From: a virus
Length of the DNA stretch: 21,481 bases
Strand: one strand, 5' to 3'
Virus record (IMG/VR): IMGVR_UViG_3300042547_000079
Coordinates: 1-21,481 of that record
Both the position numbers and the translations under genes were made by a program. Each line of letters opens with the position of its first letter. The first letter of the stretch is position 1. The notes under the pieces were generated by a model, which did no database searches, was not told the origin of the DNA, and worked only from the letters and a program-made list of their open reading frames with translations. Shown piece after piece: positions 951-18,838 of the stretch.

Positions 951-1661
951 TCAACACCTGCTCCTGTGCCTGACGATCAAGCCTGTGCTCTTCTGATAGT
1001 AGCCACCCCAGATGTCACGGCTACTGAGCCGCCCACGCAAATGATGCAGGATGCGCTGCTCTCCCACATACACGGCCACATGGTTCAAGCCGGGCGACCC
1101 ATCAAGCTGCATCAGGATCGCGTCGCCATACTCAGGCTCATTGATGCCATGGTCTTCAAAGCCTGCCTCAGCGAAGCACCGCTCAAACATCGGGGCATTA
1201 TGAAACTCAAGCAGTGACGCAGGTCGCTCCCAATCCGGCAGGTCGAGCGTCATCTCCTCTTTGTACCAGTCCCGCACCAGCGTCCAGCAGTCGCTCACGC
1301 CCCACACCCATTCCCGCCCGATCAGCGGCGCCTGGTAACCCTCTGGCTCGATCTTGCACCACATCTCAGTGCCAGGGTTGCAGATGTGCCAGACCAGTCC
1401 AGACTTTTCGCAGGCCATGCGGTCGGCTTGGCTTGGCTGCGCAGGTGTCTGCGGGTGGCTGTGGAACACGGCGATCACCTCGCCAGCGTCCTCTGCAGCG
1501 GCGTAATCGTCAGGGTCAAGGATGAAGAAGTCTTTAGCGGGTGCCAGGTTCTTGCATGGCCAATACTGCTCGCGGCCTTTGATGACGACGACCAACCCGC
1601 ACGCCTCGCGTGGTGCATCCTTGAGCGCATGTTCCAGCGCGTAGTGCTTCCAGTGTGTCAT
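951..1661 (-). CDS. K: Lambda gpK-like tail tip protein with JAMM and NlpC/P60 domains
   Basis: The product is 236 aa with two peptidase-like domains. Residues about 1-110 form a JAB1/MPN (JAMM) domain: Glu19 in EACG and the metal-binding pattern H67-S-H69 ... S77-x-x-D80 are all present. Residues about 112-236 form an NlpC/P60 cysteine peptidase domain with Cys125 in VSDCWTLV and His194 in LNHVAVYVG; His206 or His207 could be the third polar residue. This architecture is that of lambda gpK, a tail tip component thought to help open peptidoglycan or process tail proteins. The gene overlaps the gpL-like gene by ATGA at 1658-1661. All catalytic residues look intact. Confidence 0.93.
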   Translation of the reverse strand: MTHWKHYALEHALKDAPREACGLVVVIKGREQYWPCKNLAPAKDFFILDPDDYAAAEDAGEVIAVFHSHPQTPAQPSQADRMACEKSGLVWHICNPGTEMWCKIEPEGYQAPLIGREWVWGVSDCWTLVRDWYKEEMTLDLPDWERPASLLEFHNAPMFERCFAEAGFEDHGINEPEYGDAILMQLDGSPGLNHVAVYVGEQRILHHLRGRLSSRDIWGGYYQKSTGLIVRHRSRC

Positions 1662-3202
1662 CCGTAGAAGGTACCAGCGCTTGGGAATGATCCAAAGGGT
1701 AAGTCGTTGAACTCACCAAAGCGTTTCCTGCATGAGCTGATCCGCTTGCCGCATACATCACGCAACGGGTCAACGGTGCCGGTCTGCACCAGAGGCTCAA
1801 CAGCGCTGGCGTAACTGGATGTCCAGAGCGGGGTGTTGGCGCCTGTGTACACAATGAGCTGACCGGTCGTCGTGATGCTTAGCCGGTTGTTGCTGTTGCC
1901 GCTGACGCCTGTGATCTCATACTGCGGGCCTGCCTCCGTCAATGTGCCCAGAGTTGGGTGATTATTTCTGAATGGGTTGCCGCTGCTCAGGGTCTTGGGC
2001 AGGTTGACCACCTCGCCCTGGTAATAGCTACCTGTTGAGCTGCTGATCGACTGGCTGCTGATGATATTCCATGCAAACGACTCGCCTGTGTAATGGTCAA
2101 CAGGCAGCGCAGCAGATGTGAAGGTGAACTGAACCGTGATTGTGCGACCGCTGACCGTGAACGTTTCTGTCTGCGTGTTGGTCAGTCCTGCGCTAGCAGG
2201 CGATGATCCGACGCACTCCCAACCAAAGCCACCAGAGCGGCCGGTCTGACCATCGGTTGGATACCAGCCAAGGAATGCCAAACCCGTTGGTGAAGCGGTG
2301 CCTACCGTGTTGCTGGCCCAGATCGCGCTGCTGCCGTTGTAGATGACAAGGTTGCCATCGGCCTGCATTGTGATCCGCCAAGTGCCGTCACCACGGTTCG
2401 TTCCAGTTTGCCAGACAGGCACGTTCGCCTTGTTGTAGACCACGAAGTTGCCATCGGCCTGCATGAGTGCCCGATACCAGCCGTTCGACGAAACGATTGC
2501 GTCGCCTTCATTCAGTGTCTCGTTGACGTTGAGCTGAGCGCCAAATGCGGTTGAGTTGAAATTGGTTGCAGGCGTGGCCCCTAAGGCGTTGTCGTACTCA
2601 TCAAAGTAGTTGGTGCCTGTGTAGCCGCATTCAGCGCTGCGATATTTCCATTGGCAAATGTTTGCGATCACCTGCCGTTTTGGTGCACGCACGCCAGCAA
2701 GGTCGAACACAGCCGCCAGCTCAAACTCAACAACATCCCTGTTCTCGACTGACTTGCGGTCGATGTAATAGATCTCGCGTGGCATCTCCTCGTCAGCCGG
2801 TACGCCATAGGGGTTGACGCCGCCAGTGAAGTTAACAGGGTCAAGAAACCTGCTCAGCGTGCGGATCCTGATCACCTTCGCGCCTGTCAGGTCATTGCCA
2901 ATCGTGAACTCGTTGACGCTCAGCAGCAGCGCTGAGATATTGCCGAGAAGGTTTGAGACGCGCACCTTCGGCCGTGGGAGCTGACCAGTGCCGTTATACT
3001 CAAAGCCCTCGACCTCGATCGGCAGTGCTTGGTATGGCTTGCCTTTCCAGATGATGTTTCCTGTTGGTGTAGCTTGATTGGCACCAGGGTGGAAGTAAAC
3101 GATCTCAGTCGTGCCGTGCAGCGAAGCGTCAAGATGCAACTCGAACAGCTCGATAATCGCGTAAGGGTTGGAGCTGAGCAGCTCCTGAAACATCTCGCTC
3201 AT
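1658..3202 (-). CDS. L: Lambda gpL-like minor tail protein carrying a bulb-lectin-like insertion
   Basis: The product is 514 aa, about twice the usual size of gpL (about 230 aa). Residues 1-200 match the gpL N-terminal region (LPRPKVRVSNL; DREIYYIDRK-like region around 142-150). The family has four conserved cysteines reported to hold an Fe-S cluster. Here C183 and C192 lie before a long insertion, and C484 and C491 (VCGKRISSCRKRFG) come after it. The insertion (about 205-478) contains two clear bulb-type mannose-lectin repeats, MQADGNFVVYN (247-257) and MQADGNLVIYN (279-289), each followed by a PVW or AIW strand, and a weaker third copy (LSITTTGQLIVYTG, 441-454). Between them (about 310-430) is a beta-rich stretch with a single extra cysteine, C330. 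Sugar binding at the tail tip is inference. Confidence 0.92.
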   Translation of the reverse strand: MSEMFQELLSSNPYAIIELFELHLDASLHGTTEIVYFHPGANQATPTGNIIWKGKPYQALPIEVEGFEYNGTGQLPRPKVRVSNLLGNISALLLSVNEFTIGNDLTGAKVIRIRTLSRFLDPVNFTGGVNPYGVPADEEMPREIYYIDRKSVENRDVVEFELAAVFDLAGVRAPKRQVIANICQWKYRSAECGYTGTNYFDEYDNALGATPATNFNSTAFGAQLNVNETLNEGDAIVSSNGWYRALMQADGNFVVYNKANVPVWQTGTNRGDGTWRITMQADGNLVIYNGSSAIWASNTVGTASPTGLAFLGWYPTDGQTGRSGGFGWECVGSSPASAGLTNTQTETFTVSGRTITVQFTFTSAALPVDHYTGESFAWNIISSQSISSSTGSYYQGEVVNLPKTLSSGNPFRNNHPTLGTLTEAGPQYEITGVSGNSNNRLSITTTGQLIVYTGANTPLWTSSYASAVEPLVQTGTVDPLRDVCGKRISSCRKRFGEFNDLPFGSFPSAGTFYG

Positions 3203-7678: not shown

Positions 7679-8118
7679 CAGCCTTGCCTCCTGATGCGCT
7701 CCCAGTTCTGGTCTACGAAACGTTGCATCTCACGGGCTGTGCGGTCCACCCATCCTGCCGGTGCCTGCGGGCTGTGGCCTTGCGCCAGCGGCTCGGCATA
7801 TGGCAGGTTGTTGTGAACGCTGTAATAGTTGCCTACGCGTTCTTGGCCGTAGCCAAGTCTTTGAATAGGTAGCACCTCTTGAGTGCTCCTGCCGCGTTTG
7901 GATGTCTTGAAAGTTTTACCTGTATCGAACTGCCCTTCCGGCGCAATGCCTCCAGGCGCTGCATTTTCACCAACCTGCCAACTGGCGCGGAACCTGCCAG
8001 TGTCAACCGGGCTGGCTTGCTTAAGCCTGCTGTCAGTTTCCAGCACCGTTACGCGCAGCAGTGTTTCAAGCTGGCCGCCCATATATTTGCCAATATCGCG
8101 GATGGGCAGGTTGCTCAT
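7678..8118 (-). CDS. Neck / tail completion protein (HK97 gp10 or lambda gpZ-like)
   Basis: The product is 146 aa. It shows the family's marks: PVDTGRFRASW (residues about 36-46), followed by a variable charged loop, then NNLPYAEPLAQGHSPQAPAGWVDR (near 103-126, here described by its PYAEPL and GHS-QAPAGWV parts), and an amphipathic C-terminal helix. Proteins of this type join the head-tail interface and are needed for tail completion. The start overlaps the head closure gene's stop by ATGA (8115-8118). Confidence 0.85.
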   Translation of the reverse strand: MSNLPIRDIGKYMGGQLETLLRVTVLETDSRLKQASPVDTGRFRASWQVGENAAPGGIAPEGQFDTGKTFKTSKRGRSTQEVLPIQRLGYGQERVGNYYSVHNNLPYAEPLAQGHSPQAPAGWVDRTAREMQRFVDQNWERIRRQG

Positions 8119-8471
8119 GCTCTTAGGATTAGCTCGTAGGTGATCGCGGTGTTGTCCTGCTCGATCGTTTGGACACGGATGACCTGATGCACCACGCTGT
8201 TGATCAGCACTTTGTCAACCGTGGTCGGCGCTGTGCTCAGATCCGCGGCTGCAATGATCAGCCGCTTATCGCCAGCCTGCACCAACTCATTCACTTCGCG
8301 GATATTGACATCTTCTAGCACGCCCCGAACGGTCGTATCTGTATTGGTCTCGGCAATGGTGCCCGTTGCGGGGTCGTAGCTGCCAGTTGCGACGCGACGG
8401 ATAGTTGCAACACCGCCAAAGCGTGCCATCAGCTTGCTGGCAACCTTGCGTAGCGGACTAGCTAGTGCCAT
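8115..8471 (-). CDS. Head closure (stopper)-like protein
   Basis: The product is 118 aa. After a basic N-terminal helix (SPLRKVASKLMARFGG) it is mainly beta strands, with SYDPATGTIAETNTDTTVRG (residues about 31-50) and a RLIIAAADL strand followed by a VHQVIRVQTIE strand. That pattern fits the small beta-barrel head-tail connector or stopper proteins that retain packaged DNA. The overlap with both neighbours (TGATG upstream, ATGA downstream) and its place just before the gpZ-like gene support this. Sequence alone gives only a family-level match. Confidence 0.72.
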   Translation of the reverse strand: MALASPLRKVASKLMARFGGVATIRRVATGSYDPATGTIAETNTDTTVRGVLEDVNIREVNELVQAGDKRLIIAAADLSTAPTTVDKVLINSVVHQVIRVQTIEQDNTAITYELILRA

Positions 8472-9004
8472 CAGGCAACCTGCACTGCTGTAAGGATAAT
8501 GCCAGGAATGGAAGGATGAGCTGGTCCCGATGGCGAGGATGGAAGCGATTGGATGCTAGCGGCTACGTCTGTGGTAGACCAGATCAATTCCAAGTAATCA
8601 TTAGCGGCAAGTTTTAGAACATAGTTCACGCAACCAATAACGTGGCCATCAACGCTGCCATGCCTTGCAATGATGCTGAACTTGCTGTCGCTAGCCGGCA
8701 CGTTGCCAGCGTCACCTTCATTGTTCTTGCGCAGCCAGATATTGATGTCGTGAATCGAGCTGCTTGTGTTCACAAACTGGACAGAGTAAGTGACGCTGTA
8801 AACGCCTGCCCTAGAAAAGGTGACTCGTGAGCCAGAAACAATGCTTATCCCACGGCTATCAGCATCCGTTGAATTGATGCCAACTGAATAGGCAGTGTTG
8901 GCAGCCGCTGCAATCTGCTGAGTCGTGTCGTAAAACGATCCCCACAGCATTTGGTTGCGGACTGTATCAAGACCACTTGTGAACGGATTGAGCTTAAAGG
9001 CCAT
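8471..9004 (-). CDS. Virion structural protein, C1q/TNF-like jelly-roll candidate
   Basis: The product is 177 aa. A short N-terminal anchor (AFKLNPFTSGLDTV) is followed by an about 150-residue beta-rich domain: TAYSVGINST, RVTFSRAGVYSVTYSVQFVN, then GCVNYVLKLAANDYLELIWS and a final GIILTAVQVA strand. The 'F-x-x-AGVYxVxYSVQF ... L-x-ANDYLEL' pattern recalls C1q-like jelly rolls seen in phage decoration or fibre proteins. A GGAG ribosome binding site lies seven bases before ATG 9004. It sits in a small block of structural genes between the adaptor and the head closure gene, so a surface or neck decoration role is plausible. Exact function is unknown. Confidence 0.7.
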   Translation of the reverse strand: MAFKLNPFTSGLDTVRNQMLWGSFYDTTQQIAAAANTAYSVGINSTDADSRGISIVSGSRVTFSRAGVYSVTYSVQFVNTSSSIHDINIWLRKNNEGDAGNVPASDSKFSIIARHGSVDGHVIGCVNYVLKLAANDYLELIWSTTDVAASIQSLPSSPSGPAHPSIPGIILTAVQVA

Positions 9005-11649: not shown

Positions 11650-12321
11650 TTAGCGGTTGGCTGTTGCTTTCATGCGGTCATACAGGTCACGGTCTGTACG
11701 AAACAGCCGTGCCTGTTCGGTCAAGTTGAATGTATCCCTGTTGAACGGATTGGTCATCCCGGCAGGGATTCCTCCAGTGCTAGCGCCTGCTGATGGTGCA
11801 CCGCTGCCCTGCGGTTTGGGTTGCTTCTGCATCCAGCTTGGCAGCGTCTTGGCCCATTCGCTAACGGGTGTGCGCTGGTAGCCATCGACCACGACGACAG
11901 TGCCATCAGGGTCGCGCTCGATCTGATCGGCGCTCAGCTTGGTCTTTAGCACCATGTCCGGGTCGTGCACGATGTCGGCCAATGCCGTTACCGCTGGTGT
12001 GACAAGTTCCAGCTCACGCACGCGTGATTCAAGCTCTGCAATGCGCTTGTCCTTTTCTGCTGTCGCCTCGCGGAACTGCACCTCTAGGGCTTGCCGTGCC
12101 TCTTGGTATTTGCCTTGAGATTCGAGCTGCTGCTGTTCATGGTTCCTTTTGAACTCCAGCAGCTCATCGACATTGACGCCATCAGGCAGCTTGGGTGCTT
12201 TGGATTTTGCTGCGCGCAGCTCAGCAATCAGCTCTTGGTTTTTGCGCTCCAGTGCCTCAACACTGCGTTGCAAGTCAACCTCAGTAGCCGCAGGCTCTGG
12301 GGTTTGTGTTTCATCAGACAT
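11650..12321 (-). CDS. Capsid scaffolding protein
   Basis: The product is 223 aa, acidic and largely helical. Residues about 14-42 and 52-112 are predicted-looking coiled coils rich in Glu, Gln, Arg and Lys (EALERKNQELIAELRAAK; EKDKRIAELESRVREL). A low-complexity Gly/Ala/Ser/Pro linker (about 170-190) leads to a short C-terminal part (NLTEQARLFRTDRDLYDRM). This layout, just upstream of the capsid gene, is typical of scaffold proteins that are removed from the prohead. The upstream gene on the same strand is 242 bases away, because a plus-strand gene intervenes; no good ribosome binding site is seen before ATG 12321. Confidence 0.85.
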   Translation of the reverse strand: MSDETQTPEPAATEVDLQRSVEALERKNQELIAELRAAKSKAPKLPDGVNVDELLEFKRNHEQQQLESQGKYQEARQALEVQFREATAEKDKRIAELESRVRELELVTPAVTALADIVHDPDMVLKTKLSADQIERDPDGTVVVVDGYQRTPVSEWAKTLPSWMQKQPKPQGSGAPSAGASTGGIPAGMTNPFNRDTFNLTEQARLFRTDRDLYDRMKATANR

Positions 12322-12996: not shown

Positions 12997-13139
12997 CACT
13001 TCTTGCCCTTTGGCTTGCGGGACTTGCCAGCTTTGGACAGCGCAATGGCAATGGCTTGCTTTTGCGGTTTGCCTGCTTTCATCTCAGCCTTGATGTTGGC
13101 CGAGATGGTCTTCTGTGAACTACCTTTTTTCAGGGGCAC
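12996..13139 (-). CDS. Small basic protein (47 aa), [13 protein letters not shown] family
   Basis: GTG at 13139 gives [20 protein letters not shown], then [20 protein letters not shown], then RKPKGKK. The motif '[30 protein letters not shown]' is a very widespread small phage protein, so this is likely a gene. The start lies inside the last 20 bases of the head morphogenesis gene, with an AGG about six bases before it. The stop overlaps the next ATG. Function is unknown. Confidence 0.82.
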
Positions 13140-14334
13140 CGTACCTAGCGCGGAGATGCTCCAAGGTTAGCTCTGACCCGTCATCACGCACCAGCTTGGC
13201 TAGCGCGTTCTGCGGTCCGTACTTTTCTGACAGCTTGTCAAAGTAGGCAACCTTGCCAGCGCCAAGCGCTTTTGCCTTAGTCGGCAGGTCTTGCTTAGCC
13301 AGCCACTGCCCGTAGGATTCATTCGCAGGCACCTGTCCCCCCTGGCTAGCACGGGTGCCTGCTGGTGGCGGCGTGAAACCTAGCTCGTCGTAGTCAATGA
13401 CCGGAATGGTCGTGCTGCGGCAGTTGAAGTGCTGCGGTGGTGTCGGGCCTTTGCCGTATTCAAACGTCTTGCCGTCCAACGCCCGGCAGATTGCGCTGGT
13501 GCGCGTGTCGAGCGTGGCGACGTACCTGTATTTCTTGGTGATGTCTTGATTAGCCTCATACACCTGCTGGCTGGCGCTGTTGGCCACTTGGTTAATGCTG
13601 GTGCGCACCAGAGTGACGATCTGATTGTCGGCCACTGCTGTGGCTTGACCCCCTGCTGCGACAAGCTGCCGCACGTTACGTGCACGCTCGCCAAACTCAA
13701 GGTTGCCGATCAACCGCTTTGCAATGGCAGGCGTGGGTTCGCCGGTCAGCAGCCCTTGCCGCACCACTTGCGAGAACCGCTCTGCCTGATCGACGGCGAT
13801 GCCCCTGAATGCCTTGGTAACTGTCTCGCCATTGGGCAGCGTGATTGTTGCGCCCTTGGCAGCGGTCAGATTGAATACGCCAGTGCCGGCCTGCTGCGCT
13901 AGGGCCTCTGCGCCATAGACCGACTTGAACAGGTCATCGCTTAGCGCGACCACGTTGAGCTGTGTCGGGTCGGTCGTGACCACAGACTGCGCAAATTGCG
14001 GGCTGATCTCTACGGTGTTTACGGCGTCACGAGCGCCAGCCGGTAGCGCCTTGCGTAGCTGATCTGCCACGAACTCAGACTGCAGCTCAGCGATGCCCTG
14101 CAGCTCGGTGGCTGTGATCTCCGTTGCATCACCTGCCCAGGTTGCAAGCGAGTCCTTTAGTTGCGCCAAAATGCCACGCAACCTTGCAGCCTTGACCGGT
14201 GCGGCTAGGTCGTCGATCGTGCGCAGTTGGTTAACGCTATCGATGATGATGTCGTTGTAAGCATTGATGATCCGCCGCGCAACGCTATTGCTAAAGCGGT
14301 TCAGGTCAATGGCATTGCGGTATAACGCTTCCAT
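13120..14334 (-). CDS. Phage head morphogenesis protein (Mu F / SPP1 gp7-like)
   Basis: The product is 404 aa. The N-terminal 230 residues are mainly helical. The conserved C-terminal domain is at about 240-315: [39 protein letters not shown], and [15 protein letters not shown]. The likely zinc-binding C283 ... H302-x-x-C305 pattern of the family is intact. SPP1 gp7 and Mu F are minor head proteins that associate with the portal and affect DNA delivery. The gene follows the portal and a small ORF, its usual place. The stop lies inside the next small gene. Confidence 0.9.
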
Positions 14335-14550: not shown

Positions 14551-15996
14551 TCAAGCTCCTGCTTCCTGGGCTTCTTCGGCTCCATCCAGATCATCAGGTC
14601 CACTAGCCAGTCTGTCAGCTTGTCCAGCAGACGGTAGATCAAGCCCCGCATTGGATGTGGCCTCCAGCTCCTCGTCTACATCAAAGTTATCGCCCAGCAC
14701 ATCGCCTTCGGCAAGTTCGGTCAGCAGCGTTTCTTGGCTGATGGTGCCAGCGGTGTACAACGACAGCAGAGCCTGGATGTCCTGCGGCTCAAGGCGTGCG
14801 CCAAGGAAATCGCGGTTGACGTAAGCGCTACCGGCAGCGGTTGCATTGCCGAGATATTGCGCGTGCCACTGCAGGCAGTTGTCGATCATGTCCTGCATAT
14901 TCTGCGCAATCACCATCATGGTGCTGTCGCCTTGGCTGCGGTCGATGCGCTTAGCCTCGGCGGTCTCGGCGCTTAGCTTCTGGCCCAGCACGGCCGACAG
15001 GCCTAGCTCGTTGATCTGCAACGCAAGCTGCTCAAGCCTGCGGAACTGCGCTTCAAAGCTACGGCCAGCAGGCTCGATGTACTCGGCGCGGCCTTCGGCT
15101 GGGAATGCAATCGCCTCGCCAGGCCCTGCTGATACCTCTTCGGCGCTGGACGGGAAGCCATAAAACGCCAGCATCGGCACGGCTGAAATGTGCAGTTGGT
15201 TGTCAAGGTCCGACTGCACCTGGTAGGTCTTCAGGTTCAGCTCGGCGATGTCCTCAAGTGGTGGGCGTGACTCCATGAAGCCATGCCGCTGCGCATAGGC
15301 GATGCTGAACGGGATCTGGCTAAGGCTGGTGCGGCCTTCATCGACGACGGTGAACTCACCGCTGTCTTGTTTGCGGTGGATGCGGTACTCACCAGGCGTC
15401 AAGACACGGATCTGCTGGACTGCCTTCTCGTTAAAGTCGCCATCTGGCACTGTGACCACCTCAGCCAGCCGCAACTGGGTCAGCACCTGCCTGCCTTCTT
15501 GCGTCTCGGTGCGCCAGCCAAGGATCTGCCGGGGTGTGTAGGTCACCCAATAGGGTCTACCCCCATTAGCAGGTGCATCCACCAATGTACCAATGTGGCC
15601 ATACCTGACCATTTTGCGCGCTGCTTCATAGGTCCAAACATTGAGGTCATTGCCTTGCAGGTCTACGTCGAACAGTTGCTCGCGGATCACGTCGGCGGTG
15701 TCATCCAGCCTGACTGGTTTGCGGGTCAGCATCCCGGCCAGCATCCGCTCAAGACGGATGTAGTACGGCGGGCATACGCTACGGGCTAGGCGGTTGTCGT
15801 AGGACTCGTCCAGCTCGCGTGGTTCTTGCGGCAGGTACCGGCGATGCTTTTTACGCATCCCATAGGTGCCTTGTAGCAGGTCTTCAATCAGGATCCAATG
15901 CGGCTCTTGGGCGTACCAAGACGTATTGGGGTCATTGACTTTTGAGACGGTGCGCTGCGCTAGCGGCCGGTCATAAAAATTGAAGCCGGTATACAC
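14551..15996 (-). CDS. Portal protein (DUF4055-type)
   Basis: The product is 481 aa, starting at GTG 15996; no in-frame ATG exists before the upstream TAG at 16027. The N-terminal portion has the family's YLPQEPRELDESYDNRLARS segment, followed by a MLAGMLTRKPVRL helix and AARKMVRYGHIGTLVDAP. A central region resembles the wing and stem (DIAELNLKTYQVQSDLDNQL, GPGEAIAFPA), then LSAETAEAKRIDRSQGDSTM. Proteins of the DUF4055 family act as portals in siphoviruses and podoviruses. It lies after the large terminase and before the head morphogenesis protein, the standard order. The end is acidic (PDDLDGAEEAQEAGA). Confidence 0.9.
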   Translation of the reverse strand: MYTGFNFYDRPLAQRTVSKVNDPNTSWYAQEPHWILIEDLLQGTYGMRKKHRRYLPQEPRELDESYDNRLARSVCPPYYIRLERMLAGMLTRKPVRLDDTADVIREQLFDVDLQGNDLNVWTYEAARKMVRYGHIGTLVDAPANGGRPYWVTYTPRQILGWRTETQEGRQVLTQLRLAEVVTVPDGDFNEKAVQQIRVLTPGEYRIHRKQDSGEFTVVDEGRTSLSQIPFSIAYAQRHGFMESRPPLEDIAELNLKTYQVQSDLDNQLHISAVPMLAFYGFPSSAEEVSAGPGEAIAFPAEGRAEYIEPAGRSFEAQFRRLEQLALQINELGLSAVLGQKLSAETAEAKRIDRSQGDSTMMVIAQNMQDMIDNCLQWHAQYLGNATAAGSAYVNRDFLGARLEPQDIQALLSLYTAGTISQETLLTELAEGDVLGDNFDVDEELEATSNAGLDLPSAGQADRLASGPDDLDGAEEAQEAGA

Positions 15997-16026: not shown

Positions 16027-16158
16027 CTAAGGTTTCAGGTTCTGATGGCACGCGGGGTGGTTGTGGTGTGCCTTGTAGCCGCTGTCCTGACCAGCGACGT
16101 ACACCATTGCCAGCAGCACGATGGCTGCAACGGCGTTTATGAAACGATTGTTGATCAT
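16027..16158 (-). CDS. Small single-pass membrane protein
   Basis: ATG at 16158 gives 43 residues: MINNRFINAVAAIVLLAMVY, VAGQDSGYKAHHNHPACHQN, LKP. One hydrophobic helix spans about residues 6-22; the C-terminal part is polar with three His residues and one Cys. The frame is open upstream to 16209, but that extension lacks a helix-like N-terminus. The gene fills the space between the large terminase stop (16231) and the portal. No clear ribosome binding site was seen. It could be a holin-like or membrane accessory protein, but there is no endolysin next to it. Confidence 0.5.
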   Translation of the reverse strand: MINNRFINAVAAIVLLAMVYVAGQDSGYKAHHNHPACHQNLKP

Positions 16159-16230
16159 GGTTGGAATGGTAAAGGGTCGGCCTCGTCGGCCGTGAGCACA
16201 AGATACCACCTAGCGCCGCCGTGGTCAACC

Positions 16231-17580
16231 CTAGTAGAGCCTGACGCCTGTGCCTCGGCCAGCGCCAGCGTGTAGCGGGTTGAACTCACGCCAGACCAGG
16301 TACCCAAGCGCGTCGTTCATGTGGTCAAAGCCAGCATCCTTGTCCGGCTCGCCTTTGTCGGTGTAGCACTGCAGCTCCAGGCACTCGATGACACGCTTGC
16401 AGTGCTGCACGACCTGCAACCTGACTTGCCCTTTGCCGTTTTCCAGCAGAGCTTGAACGGCAGCCACCCGATCACGGACGGGAGGGTTGCTGCGTGGTGA
16501 CTGGTTCGACATGCCGTAGGACTCAAGAATCTGAATGTCGGTCTGGCTGGCGTTGGTGCTGCGGCTGCCACCGCTGGCGTCTGGGTAGATGTACACCTGC
16601 TGCTGTGGGTGCCGCCTGCGGATCTCTTGCGCCAAGGCGTCGGTGTCATGGGCGCCTGCAATCTCATCGATGACTAGCAGGCCACTGCCAAGTCGGACAG
16701 CGATCACAGCGGACATGTTGCCCACGTTGAAGTCAATGCCAACCCTGATTGGCTCGCGGCTGATGTCCGGCACTGTGGCGGTGACATGCTTGGCCCGGTC
16801 GAACCTGTCATACACCTGCCCGGTTGTCAGGTTGACGAATTCGCCGTCGAGGTACGCCCGCAGCAGGCTGGGATCGTAATTGGCTTCCAGCCGCTCGATG
16901 AAGTCCGGCGGTAGGTGCGGGTTGTCCGCCGTGCGCATCTTGATTAGATGCCGGTCTGGCCGCTGCTTAGCCTCGTCGCTGCCGAATGTGTTCCACATCC
17001 AGCGGAACCCCTCTGGCGTCGATGCAGCGCCAAACTGCCGGACATTGCCGGACCGCAAACGGCCAAGGATCTTTGGGAATGCCTTATTGGCAATGCTTGG
17101 CGTCACGGTGTCGATCTCATCCGCCAACACCCAGGCGAGGTTCAAGCCGATAATGCGGCTCCAGTTTTCAAAGCTGCGGCACAGGATTTTTGTATCACCG
17201 CCCGGCAGGTGCAGCATGTACTCAGGCAGTGGGCTAGCCCTGAACGTGTACGGGATGTCATACGCCTCTAGAAACGCTTCAAAGTCCGTTTGCCAAATAT
17301 CCCGGATCAGCGGACCTGTCGGCTCCATGACGCAGCCGATAAAGCCCTGGTTTACTGCCGCCAACATCACCGCTTTAGCGCACAGCGCCCTGGTCTTGCC
17401 AGCGCCGTAGCCCGCGCTGATACCAAGGATCTGCGTTGCTGTGTCATCCACAAACGCAAGCTGCCCAGGGTGTAGGTCGTTGCGGATACGGGCAACCAGA
17501 TCGCCTGTGTCCTCTGGCGTCTGCTGCTGCATGAACGCAAGCAGCGGCACTGGTTCGCAGATGCCGCTGACGATGCTCAC
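16231..17580 (-). CDS. terL: Terminase large subunit
   Basis: The product is 449 aa. The ATPase domain shows Walker A AGYGAGKT (residues 56-63), Walker B WVLADE (150-155, D154/E155) and a coupling motif FGAASTPEG (183-191). The nuclease domain has GIDFN (D283), VIDE (D305) and a C-terminal HMNDALGYLVW segment (D423), giving the usual acidic metal-binding set. The protein cuts and pumps phage DNA into the prohead together with the small terminase and portal. The start is GTG at 17580, with AAGG about five bases before it and GTGA overlap with the preceding 41-residue gene. Confidence 0.95.
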   Translation of the reverse strand: MSIVSGICEPVPLLAFMQQQTPEDTGDLVARIRNDLHPGQLAFVDDTATQILGISAGYGAGKTRALCAKAVMLAAVNQGFIGCVMEPTGPLIRDIWQTDFEAFLEAYDIPYTFRASPLPEYMLHLPGGDTKILCRSFENWSRIIGLNLAWVLADEIDTVTPSIANKAFPKILGRLRSGNVRQFGAASTPEGFRWMWNTFGSDEAKQRPDRHLIKMRTADNPHLPPDFIERLEANYDPSLLRAYLDGEFVNLTTGQVYDRFDRAKHVTATVPDISREPIRVGIDFNVGNMSAVIAVRLGSGLLVIDEIAGAHDTDALAQEIRRRHPQQQVYIYPDASGGSRSTNASQTDIQILESYGMSNQSPRSNPPVRDRVAAVQALLENGKGQVRLQVVQHCKRVIECLELQCYTDKGEPDKDAGFDHMNDALGYLVWREFNPLHAGAGRGTGVRLY

Positions 17581-17702
17581 AAAACCTTGCGGACAGTTGT
17601 CTTGGCGCTGCCGTCAGGCTTAACAGCAATGCGATGCAGGATGCGCGGCTCGTCGCCTTTGGGTTTAAGCAACCTACCGACAGCGGTAACTTCAGGCTTC
17701 AT
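17577..17702 (-). CDS. Micro-gene, 41-aa protein before the large terminase
   Basis: ATG at 17702 gives MKPEVTAVGRLLKPKGDEPR, ILHRIAVKPDGSAKTTVRKV, L. It begins 11 bases before the stop of the upstream small gene and ends in TTGTGA that overlaps the GTG start of the large terminase, so translational coupling is likely. The protein is basic with an apparent strand-turn-strand pattern (RILHRIAVKPDGSAKTTVRKV). It was not recognised with certainty. Its place inside a gap with no other open frame, and its close overlaps, support a real gene. Confidence 0.65.
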   Translation of the reverse strand: MKPEVTAVGRLLKPKGDEPRILHRIAVKPDGSAKTTVRKVL

Positions 17703-17826
17703 CAGCGTCGTCGAAAATAGTTTCCAGCAGCTCAGCCTTAACAATCTCAAGGCAGCCGATCAGTTCAGCGGCTGACAGCTCAGAGTCATTCATCGCCTGA
17801 GCGACTGCAGCAAGGAAGTCTTCCAT
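17692..17826 (-). CDS. Small acidic helical protein (44 aa)
   Basis: ATG at 17826 gives MEDFLAAVAQAMNDSELSAA, ELIGCLEIVKAELLETIFDD, ADEA. It is acidic and entirely helical in pattern. The 'MEDFLxAVxxAMNDSELSAAELIGxLEIVKAEL' pattern is a common small phage protein in my recollection. The frame is open to 17958, but that part would overlap the basic gene's end and is not similar to the family. It lies between the basic protein gene and the 41-residue micro-gene. Function unknown; its acidic nature beside the very basic neighbour is notable. Confidence 0.65.
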   Translation of the reverse strand: MEDFLAAVAQAMNDSELSAAELIGCLEIVKAELLETIFDDADEA

Positions 17827-17851: not shown

Positions 17852-18838
17852 TTAGCGCATCCCACGAGGTAAGCGGAAGCCTCGCGTACGCTTTCCGGCT
17901 TTTCCTTGGTTTTGCAAAACTTTTTCTGCCGTTGCTTTTGGATTCTTGTAAAACTCAAGCGCCCTGGTTGCCGTGCGTGCTTTTTTAGTCCCTTTTGCAG
18001 GGTTCATAGTTCGACGGCCGAACTTATCTCTTGCGGTACCAGCAGCTTTATTTGCTAGCGCCTTACCAGAGCGTTGAGCTGCTTTCGATGGAGCGGCCAG
18101 GCGAGAAGCCATGGGCTTGAATGCGGGAGACCTACGAGCACTACTCAAAAACCCAACAGTCGCATCAGAAATCTCTGGGCGGCGGGCACCTTGATAAGTA
18201 GCAAGTGCCTTTGCGCGAGTTCTTGCTGTTTGACGCCCTTTCCTACCTTGATTATTCGAAGGCAGCGCGCCAGCTCTGTTGACTCGGCGGACAAATGCAG
18301 CTTTGCGGTTGACAGTGTTTCTAACATCTTTGTTTTTGCTAATTGCGCCGGACATAGGCGCCTTAGAGGCTTTTAATAACTTGTCTTTAGCTTGAACTGG
18401 AAACTGCGCTCTAACCTCTCTTCTTTGCTGCAGCTTTGATGCAGTAAGATTGCTCGCTCTGTTAAGCTCCTTAGTTATGGCTTCTTTTTGCGCTTGTGTT
18501 TTGTTTCCTGAAAACAAAGATGCTCTAATTCTATTTTCACGATTGTAAGCCTTATTAAAATCTTGCTTTGCACGACGATCGGCTTTCTTGGCAGGATTTA
18601 GGCGTGCTCCGAGTTTTGATGTCGTTGCAGCGGGCTTGCTAGCAGCTTTTGCCTTAATCGCCCCTGGCTTCAGCCCCTTCGGTTTACCGATTGTGCCCTT
18701 AGGTGCGGCCGATGCCTGCATGGTCTGCGTTGCACGCTTCTTGCCGCTGGCAGTCTTAAGCCGTCCGCCACGAGCAGTGGCGCCTGCACCCTTTGGAGCA
18801 AACCTGCCTCGGTTATCTCGTGCGTACTTGCGTGCCAT
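17852..18838 (-). CDS. Extremely basic protein of unknown function, 328 aa
   Basis: By hand count about 85 of 328 residues are Lys or Arg against about 14 Asp or Glu. It begins MARKYARDNRGRFAPKGAGA, an N-terminus that resembles small basic phage proteins, and continues as an Ala/Lys/Arg-rich, weakly ordered chain to GFRLPRGMR. Only a few segments look folded (near 95-160 and 215-240). It lies 28 bases after the small terminase stop and before the terminase large subunit cluster. The middle of the gene (about 18400-18590) is richer in A+T than its surroundings. A DNA-binding, DNA-condensing or ejected internal head protein is possible, but this is inference from charge and position. Confidence 0.75.
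   Translation of the reverse strand: MARKYARDNRGRFAPKGAGATARGGRLKTASGKKRATQTMQASAAPKGTIGKPKGLKPGAIKAKAASKPAATTSKLGARLNPAKKADRRAKQDFNKAYNRENRIRASLFSGNKTQAQKEAITKELNRASNLTASKLQQRREVRAQFPVQAKDKLLKASKAPMSGAISKNKDVRNTVNRKAAFVRRVNRAGALPSNNQGRKGRQTARTRAKALATYQGARRPEISDATVGFLSSARRSPAFKPMASRLAAPSKAAQRSGKALANKAAGTARDKFGRRTMNPAKGTKKARTATRALEFYKNPKATAEKVLQNQGKAGKRTRGFRLPRGMR

Follow-up and report, generated by a model that had tools for sequence, protein, structure and literature searches.

In phage T4, the leaders of the internal proteins are cleaved by the prohead protease at (I/L)xE. As these proteins are described in two accounts (PMC12373910, PMC3012670), they share only the N-terminal leader, which directs packaging; they are injected, and they inhibit different GmrSD enzymes. 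The polyvalent proteins are characterized in another account as multi-module proteins that are encoded near virion genes and are proposed to be injected (PMC5512222). Polymorphic toxin systems join a constant N-terminus to exchangeable C-terminal parts and have an adjacent immunity gene that co-varies with the payload.

Our results demonstrate that one gene in the window, the whole stretch of 21,481 nucleotides of the virus record IMGVR_UViG_3300042547_000079 that was analyzed here, belongs to a family in which a conserved N-terminal tag is fused to interchangeable basic modules. By analogy, this basic gene most likely works as the T4 internal proteins do, and we do not claim membership in that group. 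It is similar to the T4-type proteins Ip1-Ip3, as far as they are portrayed in the two accounts (PMC12373910, PMC3012670), in that it is an accessory gene at a hypervariable locus with a short constant N-terminal leader and otherwise unrelated payloads. The T4-type combination of conserved leader and non-homologous payloads is found in the tagged family, with no homology found between the leaders. In contrast to Ip1-Ip3, the tag is about 40 aa long, highly basic and devoid of (I/L)xE, no sequence relation was found, the payloads consist of shuffled modules, small partner genes are linked, and packaging and injection are predicted. The T4-type cleavage motif, searched for as [ILF]xE, is present in 0 of 53 tags, and of the 20 window ORFs compared with PHROGs, none was named as a separate prohead protease; the MuF-type protein does match phrog_595 (head maturation protease), but head morphogenesis families score better. 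With the polyvalent proteins, as outlined in PMC5512222, the family shares a multi-module build and a location near virion genes, and a tagged neighbor in L060 and L061 has a zinc-protease-like HEVAH motif. Unlike them, its basic modules have no recognized enzyme domain in the members scanned, where neither Pfam nor PHROGs gave any domain, let alone several enzymatic ones per chain. The constant N-terminus and exchangeable C-terminal parts are also reminiscent of polymorphic toxins; here, however, no toxin domain was found and the small neighbor, p44, does not co-vary with the payload.

An earlier note on this DNA had pointed to a 328-residue, extremely basic ORF with an A+T-rich middle, which split the terminase genes and had a small acidic 44-aa ORF immediately downstream. 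Composition bears out the first claim, with 85 K/R (26%) and 14 D/E (4%); the pI is 12.0, the net charge is roughly +70, and the acidic ORF is indeed where it was placed (Table 1). The A+T-rich middle is present but mild (GC of 53, 48 and 52% by thirds of the gene). As to the split of the terminase genes, the large subunit (TerL) is identified by Pfam and PHROGs, but the small subunit (TerS) by position only; its one good match, phrog_34910, is to a family without assigned function. The note had overlooked a 41-aa ORF, p41, which overlaps p44 by 11 nt and the start of the TerL gene by 4 nt. In the direction of transcription, the genes are arranged as VapE-type helicase, small ORFs, sliding clamp, 107-aa protein in the TerS position, basic gene, p44, p41, TerL, small ORF, portal, 105-aa ORF, MuF protein, small ORFs, scaffold and major capsid protein.

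Table 1. Features of the window discussed in the text (positions in the window; all on the minus strand).
Feature	Position	Strand	Basis or remark
Scaffolding protein	11650..12321	-	phrog_206
MuF-type head morphogenesis protein	13120..14334	-	Pfam and PHROG searches
Portal protein	14551..15996	-	phrog_145
Terminase large subunit (TerL)	16231..17580	-	Pfam Terminase_6N/6C, PHROG 2
p41, 41-aa ORF	17577..17702	-	Predicted C-terminal beta hairpin; linked to tag
p44, acidic 44-aa ORF	17692..17826	-	12 D/E, 1 K/R
Basic tagged payload protein, 328 aa	17852..18838	-	ATG start; architecture N-a-az
C-terminal GFRLPRGMR	17855..17881	-	Common to several different payloads
RAxxFY motif, residues 292-297	17948..17965	-	Type recurs in otherwise different modules
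Predicted helical hairpin, start of module a, residues 82-145	18404..18595	-	Model; blocks 81-140 with mean pLDDT 83-95
Constant N-terminal tag, residues 1-41	18716..18838	-	Sequence comparison; RDNRGRF and GATARGGRLKTASGKKRATQTM
Presumed terminase small subunit (TerS), 107 aa	18867..19190	-	Position

Open frames of up to 355 codons arose in 200 mononucleotide shuffles, so that the length of the basic ORF does not by itself prove it to be coding. It is coding, since comparisons with three relatives that have the same payload give dN/dS values of 0.07-0.15. An AlphaFold2 model of the protein (mean pLDDT 58.5, pTM 0.27) has one confident helical hairpin. The payload in the window consists of module a, in which this predicted hairpin is joined by a basic stretch modeled with low confidence, and of an az tail. 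The best BFVD hit in a structure search with this model had an E-value of 0.053, which is not meaningful at such a mean pLDDT.

Relatives were collected by scanning IMG/VR with the whole protein (30 loci) and with its N-terminal 64 residues (best 80 of 128 relatives). The analyzed set comprises 85 locus entries (L numbers) on 83 contigs, with 68 distinct proteins; L029 and L067 are on the same contig, as are L031 and L092, and L035, a separate contig whose protein is that of L056, is excluded from counts. The motifs RD[NAS]xGRF and GATARGGRL[KR]T are found in 68 of 68 distinct proteins, a count that is not independent of the second scan, which selected partly on the tag. Beyond the tag, the proteins differ. 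After a module comparison by blastp without composition correction had been dropped for over-extended alignments, 29 HMMs were built on seeds that were picked by eye in the translations. One of them models the tag. The other 28, some of which are related, model payload modules; some overlap (az, ez, hz), so that module counts depend on the choice of seeds. The models cover 67% of residues, tag included, and about a third of residues are outside every model. Among 53 non-redundant complete proteins, window included, there are 207 HMM hits, 55 of them to the tag; the controls, three sets shuffled and one reversed, gave no hit. In nine of these proteins the tag is the only part recognized. The other 44 display 37 architectures, and 26 of the 28 modules are present in at least two proteins. 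Examples are N-f-g, N-f-e-ez, N-f-c-cz, N-r-f-g, N-g-e-ez, N-b-c-cz, N-b-d, N-h-r-k and N-h-r-ez, and modules q and b occur in either order (q-b-g vs b-q-l, L107/L109). Lengths range from 171 to 581 aa, and all 53 proteins have a net charge of +34 to +127. The motif [RK]Axx[FIY][YLIMF], which was picked post hoc, was seen 37 times vs 5.1 in shuffles, in 29 of the 53 proteins and nine module models.

The packaging genes diverge much more slowly than payloads are swapped. A comparison of TerL with payload across 56 loci, the window among them, gave nine pairs with TerL identities of at least 97%. Six of these are at 100% and evidently represent a single virus found in different samples or contigs; in five of them the whole payload is common to both members, and the truncated L081 belongs to the sixth. 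The pairs formed by L019, L026 and L036, with TerL DNA identities of 99.6, 98.7 and 98.4%, have no payload in common. Less than 25% of the payload is shared by 16 of the 18 pairs at 94-97% TerL identity and by 31 of 43 pairs at 90-94%, and the mean portal coverage in the bins at 90% or above is 1.00 where both portals are present. The reverse is also seen: L019 and L059 are 84.8% identical in TerL and 95% in the basic gene over its length, 9 of 174 pairs at 82-86% TerL identity share more than 90% of the payload, and dS between the window and L049 is 0.09 in the basic gene vs 0.50 in TerL. The exchange presumably occurs by recombination. Compared with L033 and L036, stretches of 450 nt in L032 and 411 nt in L039 are absent in frame, with the C-terminus kept. 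Some module junctions fall in Ala/Lys/Pro linkers with shared DNA, but AKP/KPA/SKP motifs are found at only 31 of 68 junctions, and the linker rule is weak.

Each payload tested is nevertheless held by purifying selection as a specific sequence. Of 18 same-payload pairs that were chosen, one has an undefined dS; the other 17 give dN/dS values of 0.05-0.27 for the basic gene, the highest (0.27, L080/L091) coming from a pair near saturation that shares its payload only in part. TerL gave 0.03-0.24 in 15 of the same 18 pairs. The payloads, being under purifying selection, are thus not mere charge filler.

A same-strand head or packaging gene lies within 3 kb of the tagged gene in 73 of 83 contigs (tblastn). 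The ten contigs without such a neighbor are L061, L073, L074, L075, L076, L077, L093, L094, L095 and L104. PHROG matches place the basic gene between portal and MuF genes in L075, L082, L088 and L099. In L094, the tagged gene (7899-8978) is flanked by tail and tape measure genes, and p41 is 5.3 kb away on the opposite strand; in L077 the tagged gene adjoins an endolysin gene, and in L104 it is on the strand opposite to the portal and tail genes. The loci also contain 21 distinct ORFs, some of them near-identical copies, in which [KR]DxxG[RK]F is found close to the start and ATARGGRL is absent. Three of these (L142, L162:1610, L167) are the p41-neighbor gene itself, and others are beside MuF or between MuF and scaffold (L037, L056, L065, L091, L097 and L114, the last on the contig of L032). 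L055 and L073 have tagged genes that contain module v, which is also present in the half-tagged ORFs of L037, L065 and L174. Of 16 longer records, 7 (G002, G004, G005, G006, G009, G010, G016) have at least two separate tagged ORFs, fragments of a single ORF and a stop-containing frame being left out of the count, and L087 (4101-9743) has three tagged ORFs, two of them in tandem, and two p41 genes. A tagged 219-aa ORF next to the basic gene in L060 (6270-6926) and L061 (2820) has HEVAH and a downstream HEFVAE stretch. We take it to be a putative zinc protease; its only match, a weak one, is to a PHROG of unassigned function.

The partner genes were counted as near if they were within 1.5 kb upstream or 2 kb downstream of the tagged gene, in 80 contigs, three with too little downstream sequence being set aside and some contigs representing the same virus from different samples. 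By this measure, 73 of the 80 contigs have p41 near the tagged gene (63 downstream of it, 10 upstream), the exceptions being L072, L075, L076, L077, L093, L094 and L095, and 63 of the 80 have p44 near it. A reverse search that started from p41 (best 80 of 211 relatives) yielded 39 loci on contigs new to the analysis. In 33 of these the tag is beside p41, five of them (L142, L162, L163, L164, L167) having the RDxxGRF half only; the other six are cut by the contig edge, with part of a basic ORF in L113, L170 and L175 and with a contig start less than 280 nt from p41 in L122, L125 and L144. In the longer records (n = 16, 17-65 kb, all but one above 31 kb), which were chosen among those with the tag or p41, both were matched in 16 of 16, including those of L072, L077 and L094; the p41 match in G007 and G009 is of 15 residues (E ~1e-4). 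The sequence of p44 is identical in L019, L026 and L036 despite three different payloads, and between L049 and L042, whose payload is the same, it matches at 33 of 44 residues. In the ten pairs compared, p44 tracks the phage backbone, not the payload, and is therefore suited to serve the tag rather than a particular payload. This raises the possibility that p44 could be a general partner of tagged proteins.

No member of the family was found among the annotated phage records or bacterial genomes that were searched. The window protein (P0001), its N-terminus, the TerS-like protein, p41, p44, the longest member (L105) and the tagged HEVAH ORF had no tblastn match in 50,697 phage records, although the BLAST low-complexity filter may hide some. 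In GTDB genomes, 142 pattern stretches for the tag and seven for p41 were examined and none was confirmed. Pfam, PHROGs, NCBIfam, PADLOC and PDB gave no match indicating a function at the thresholds used for the members scanned; the window protein has one Pfam match that fails its cut-off (E 0.077), and p44 has two weak PHROG matches of unassigned function (E 0.006 and 0.015). Neither the basic gene nor p41 was found in the 13 kb around TerL of the four nearest cultured relatives, and the basic gene is thus dispensable in these phages. The tag, p41 and p44 were unmatched in the whole of KBS-S-2A, S-H1, MED4-117 and Syn5, in P-SSP7 minus its last 0.2 kb, in 100 of the 107.5 kb of P-SS2, and in 13 kb of MED4-184. 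Virion proteomics is available for P-SS2, according to PMC2784084, but offers no lever here because the first 100 kb of this phage have no N-terminal tag. In open-licence literature, the tag strings were unmatched, and titles and opening lines, on topics including shuffled disordered phage proteins and hypervariable cyanophage loci, revealed no paper describing the tagged family.

The reading that we favor, with a probability of about 0.5, is that a sorting tag brings exchangeable cargo into the phage head, in the manner of the T4 internal proteins but without a cleavage signal. The tag would be a signal recognized by the prohead, through scaffold, portal or MuF protein; p44 and p41 would act as general chaperones or adaptors for any tagged payload; and the basic protein would be packed with the DNA and probably enter the host alongside it. 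Payload turnover may then reflect selection by host factors, such as DNA-targeting defenses. Of the roles proposed in the earlier note, one in the head is favored by the position of the gene and by the tagged ORFs beside MuF and scaffold genes. The acidic protein as partner stands in so far as p44 is linked, but p41 is linked more often. Neutralization or organization of DNA fares less well: simple neutralization is weakened because payloads are swapped wholesale and yet each is under purifying selection. As a DNA-organizing packaging factor, the basic protein would bind or condense DNA, either in the head or at the terminase, and any basic sequence would do, which would explain why the modules vary. 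The high pI and K/R content, the largely unstructured low-confidence model, the adjoining terminase genes and the positive charge of all 53 proteins agree with this, but strong selection on each payload tested, recurrence of modules with conserved motifs, the wide range of lengths and absence around TerL in close cultured relatives make it unlikely.

It is doubtful, too, that the protein works outside the virion, as a late intracellular factor that binds host or phage nucleic acid or proteins and whose tag is an interaction motif for p41 or p44. Its linkage to these small genes and the carriers outside the head cluster would suit such a factor; the head or packaging neighbors in most contigs and the other tagged ORFs by MuF and scaffold genes would not. 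We consider it very improbable that the family is a low-complexity mosaic without specific function, drifting by recombination in repetitive linkers. Ala/Lys/Pro-rich linkers and the two in-frame losses are compatible with drift, but both losses retained frame and C-terminus, dN/dS is far below 1, shuffled and reversed sequences gave no module hits, and partner genes are frequent. It is just as improbable that the gene encodes a polymorphic toxin and p44 its cognate immunity protein. The constant N-terminus, variable C-terminus and small acidic neighbor call such systems to mind, yet no toxin domain is present in the members scanned, and cognate immunity as the role of p44 is rejected for its identity beside different payloads (L019/L026/L036) and its difference beside the same one (L049/L042).

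If cargo sorting by the tag is correct, the family would correspond, in picocyanophages, to the T4 internal proteins and would be assembled by shuffling of modules, the tag could be used for loading foreign cargo into these phage heads, and the variable modules would be a catalog of candidate inhibitors of cyanobacterial defenses that are hard to find by homology. More tentatively, picocyanophages might possess a combinatorial injected arsenal, made up of a universal head-sorting tag, two small partners dedicated to it and shuffled basic modules for anti-defense or host takeover that are joined by recombination, with payloads changing within less than 1% TerL divergence and with several tagged payloads in the genomes of some phages. 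Should the protein not belong to the virion after all, a gene of the packaging cluster whose content turns over faster than that of its neighbors still marks a strong, unexplained selective pressure.

The host is likely a picocyanobacterium, judging from the protein identity of TerL to that of Synechococcus phages S-H1 (80.5%) and KBS-S-2A (77%) and of Prochlorococcus phages MED4-117 and MED4-184 (74%). As to the genus, Synechococcus or Cyanobium would be a guess. The presumed TerS of the window has about 60-65% protein identity to its counterpart in phages with 91-98% identity in TerL, and seems to have been exchanged too. The small ORF between TerL and portal (16027-16209) is variable or unmatched among close relatives. 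A second tagged basic ORF, in most cases next to a MuF or scaffold gene, is present at each of L056:14070, L097:13900, L037:5988, L065:5142 and L174:5506. A long minus-strand ORF (1658-3202) has repeated QADGNxVxYN stretches, which by eye we take to be lectin-like. In MED4-117 (L004:9772-11031), the ORF after the MuF-type gene has a zinc-protease-like HEMGH motif, and in MED4-184 the HEMGH ORF and the MuF-type gene are fused as one ORF.
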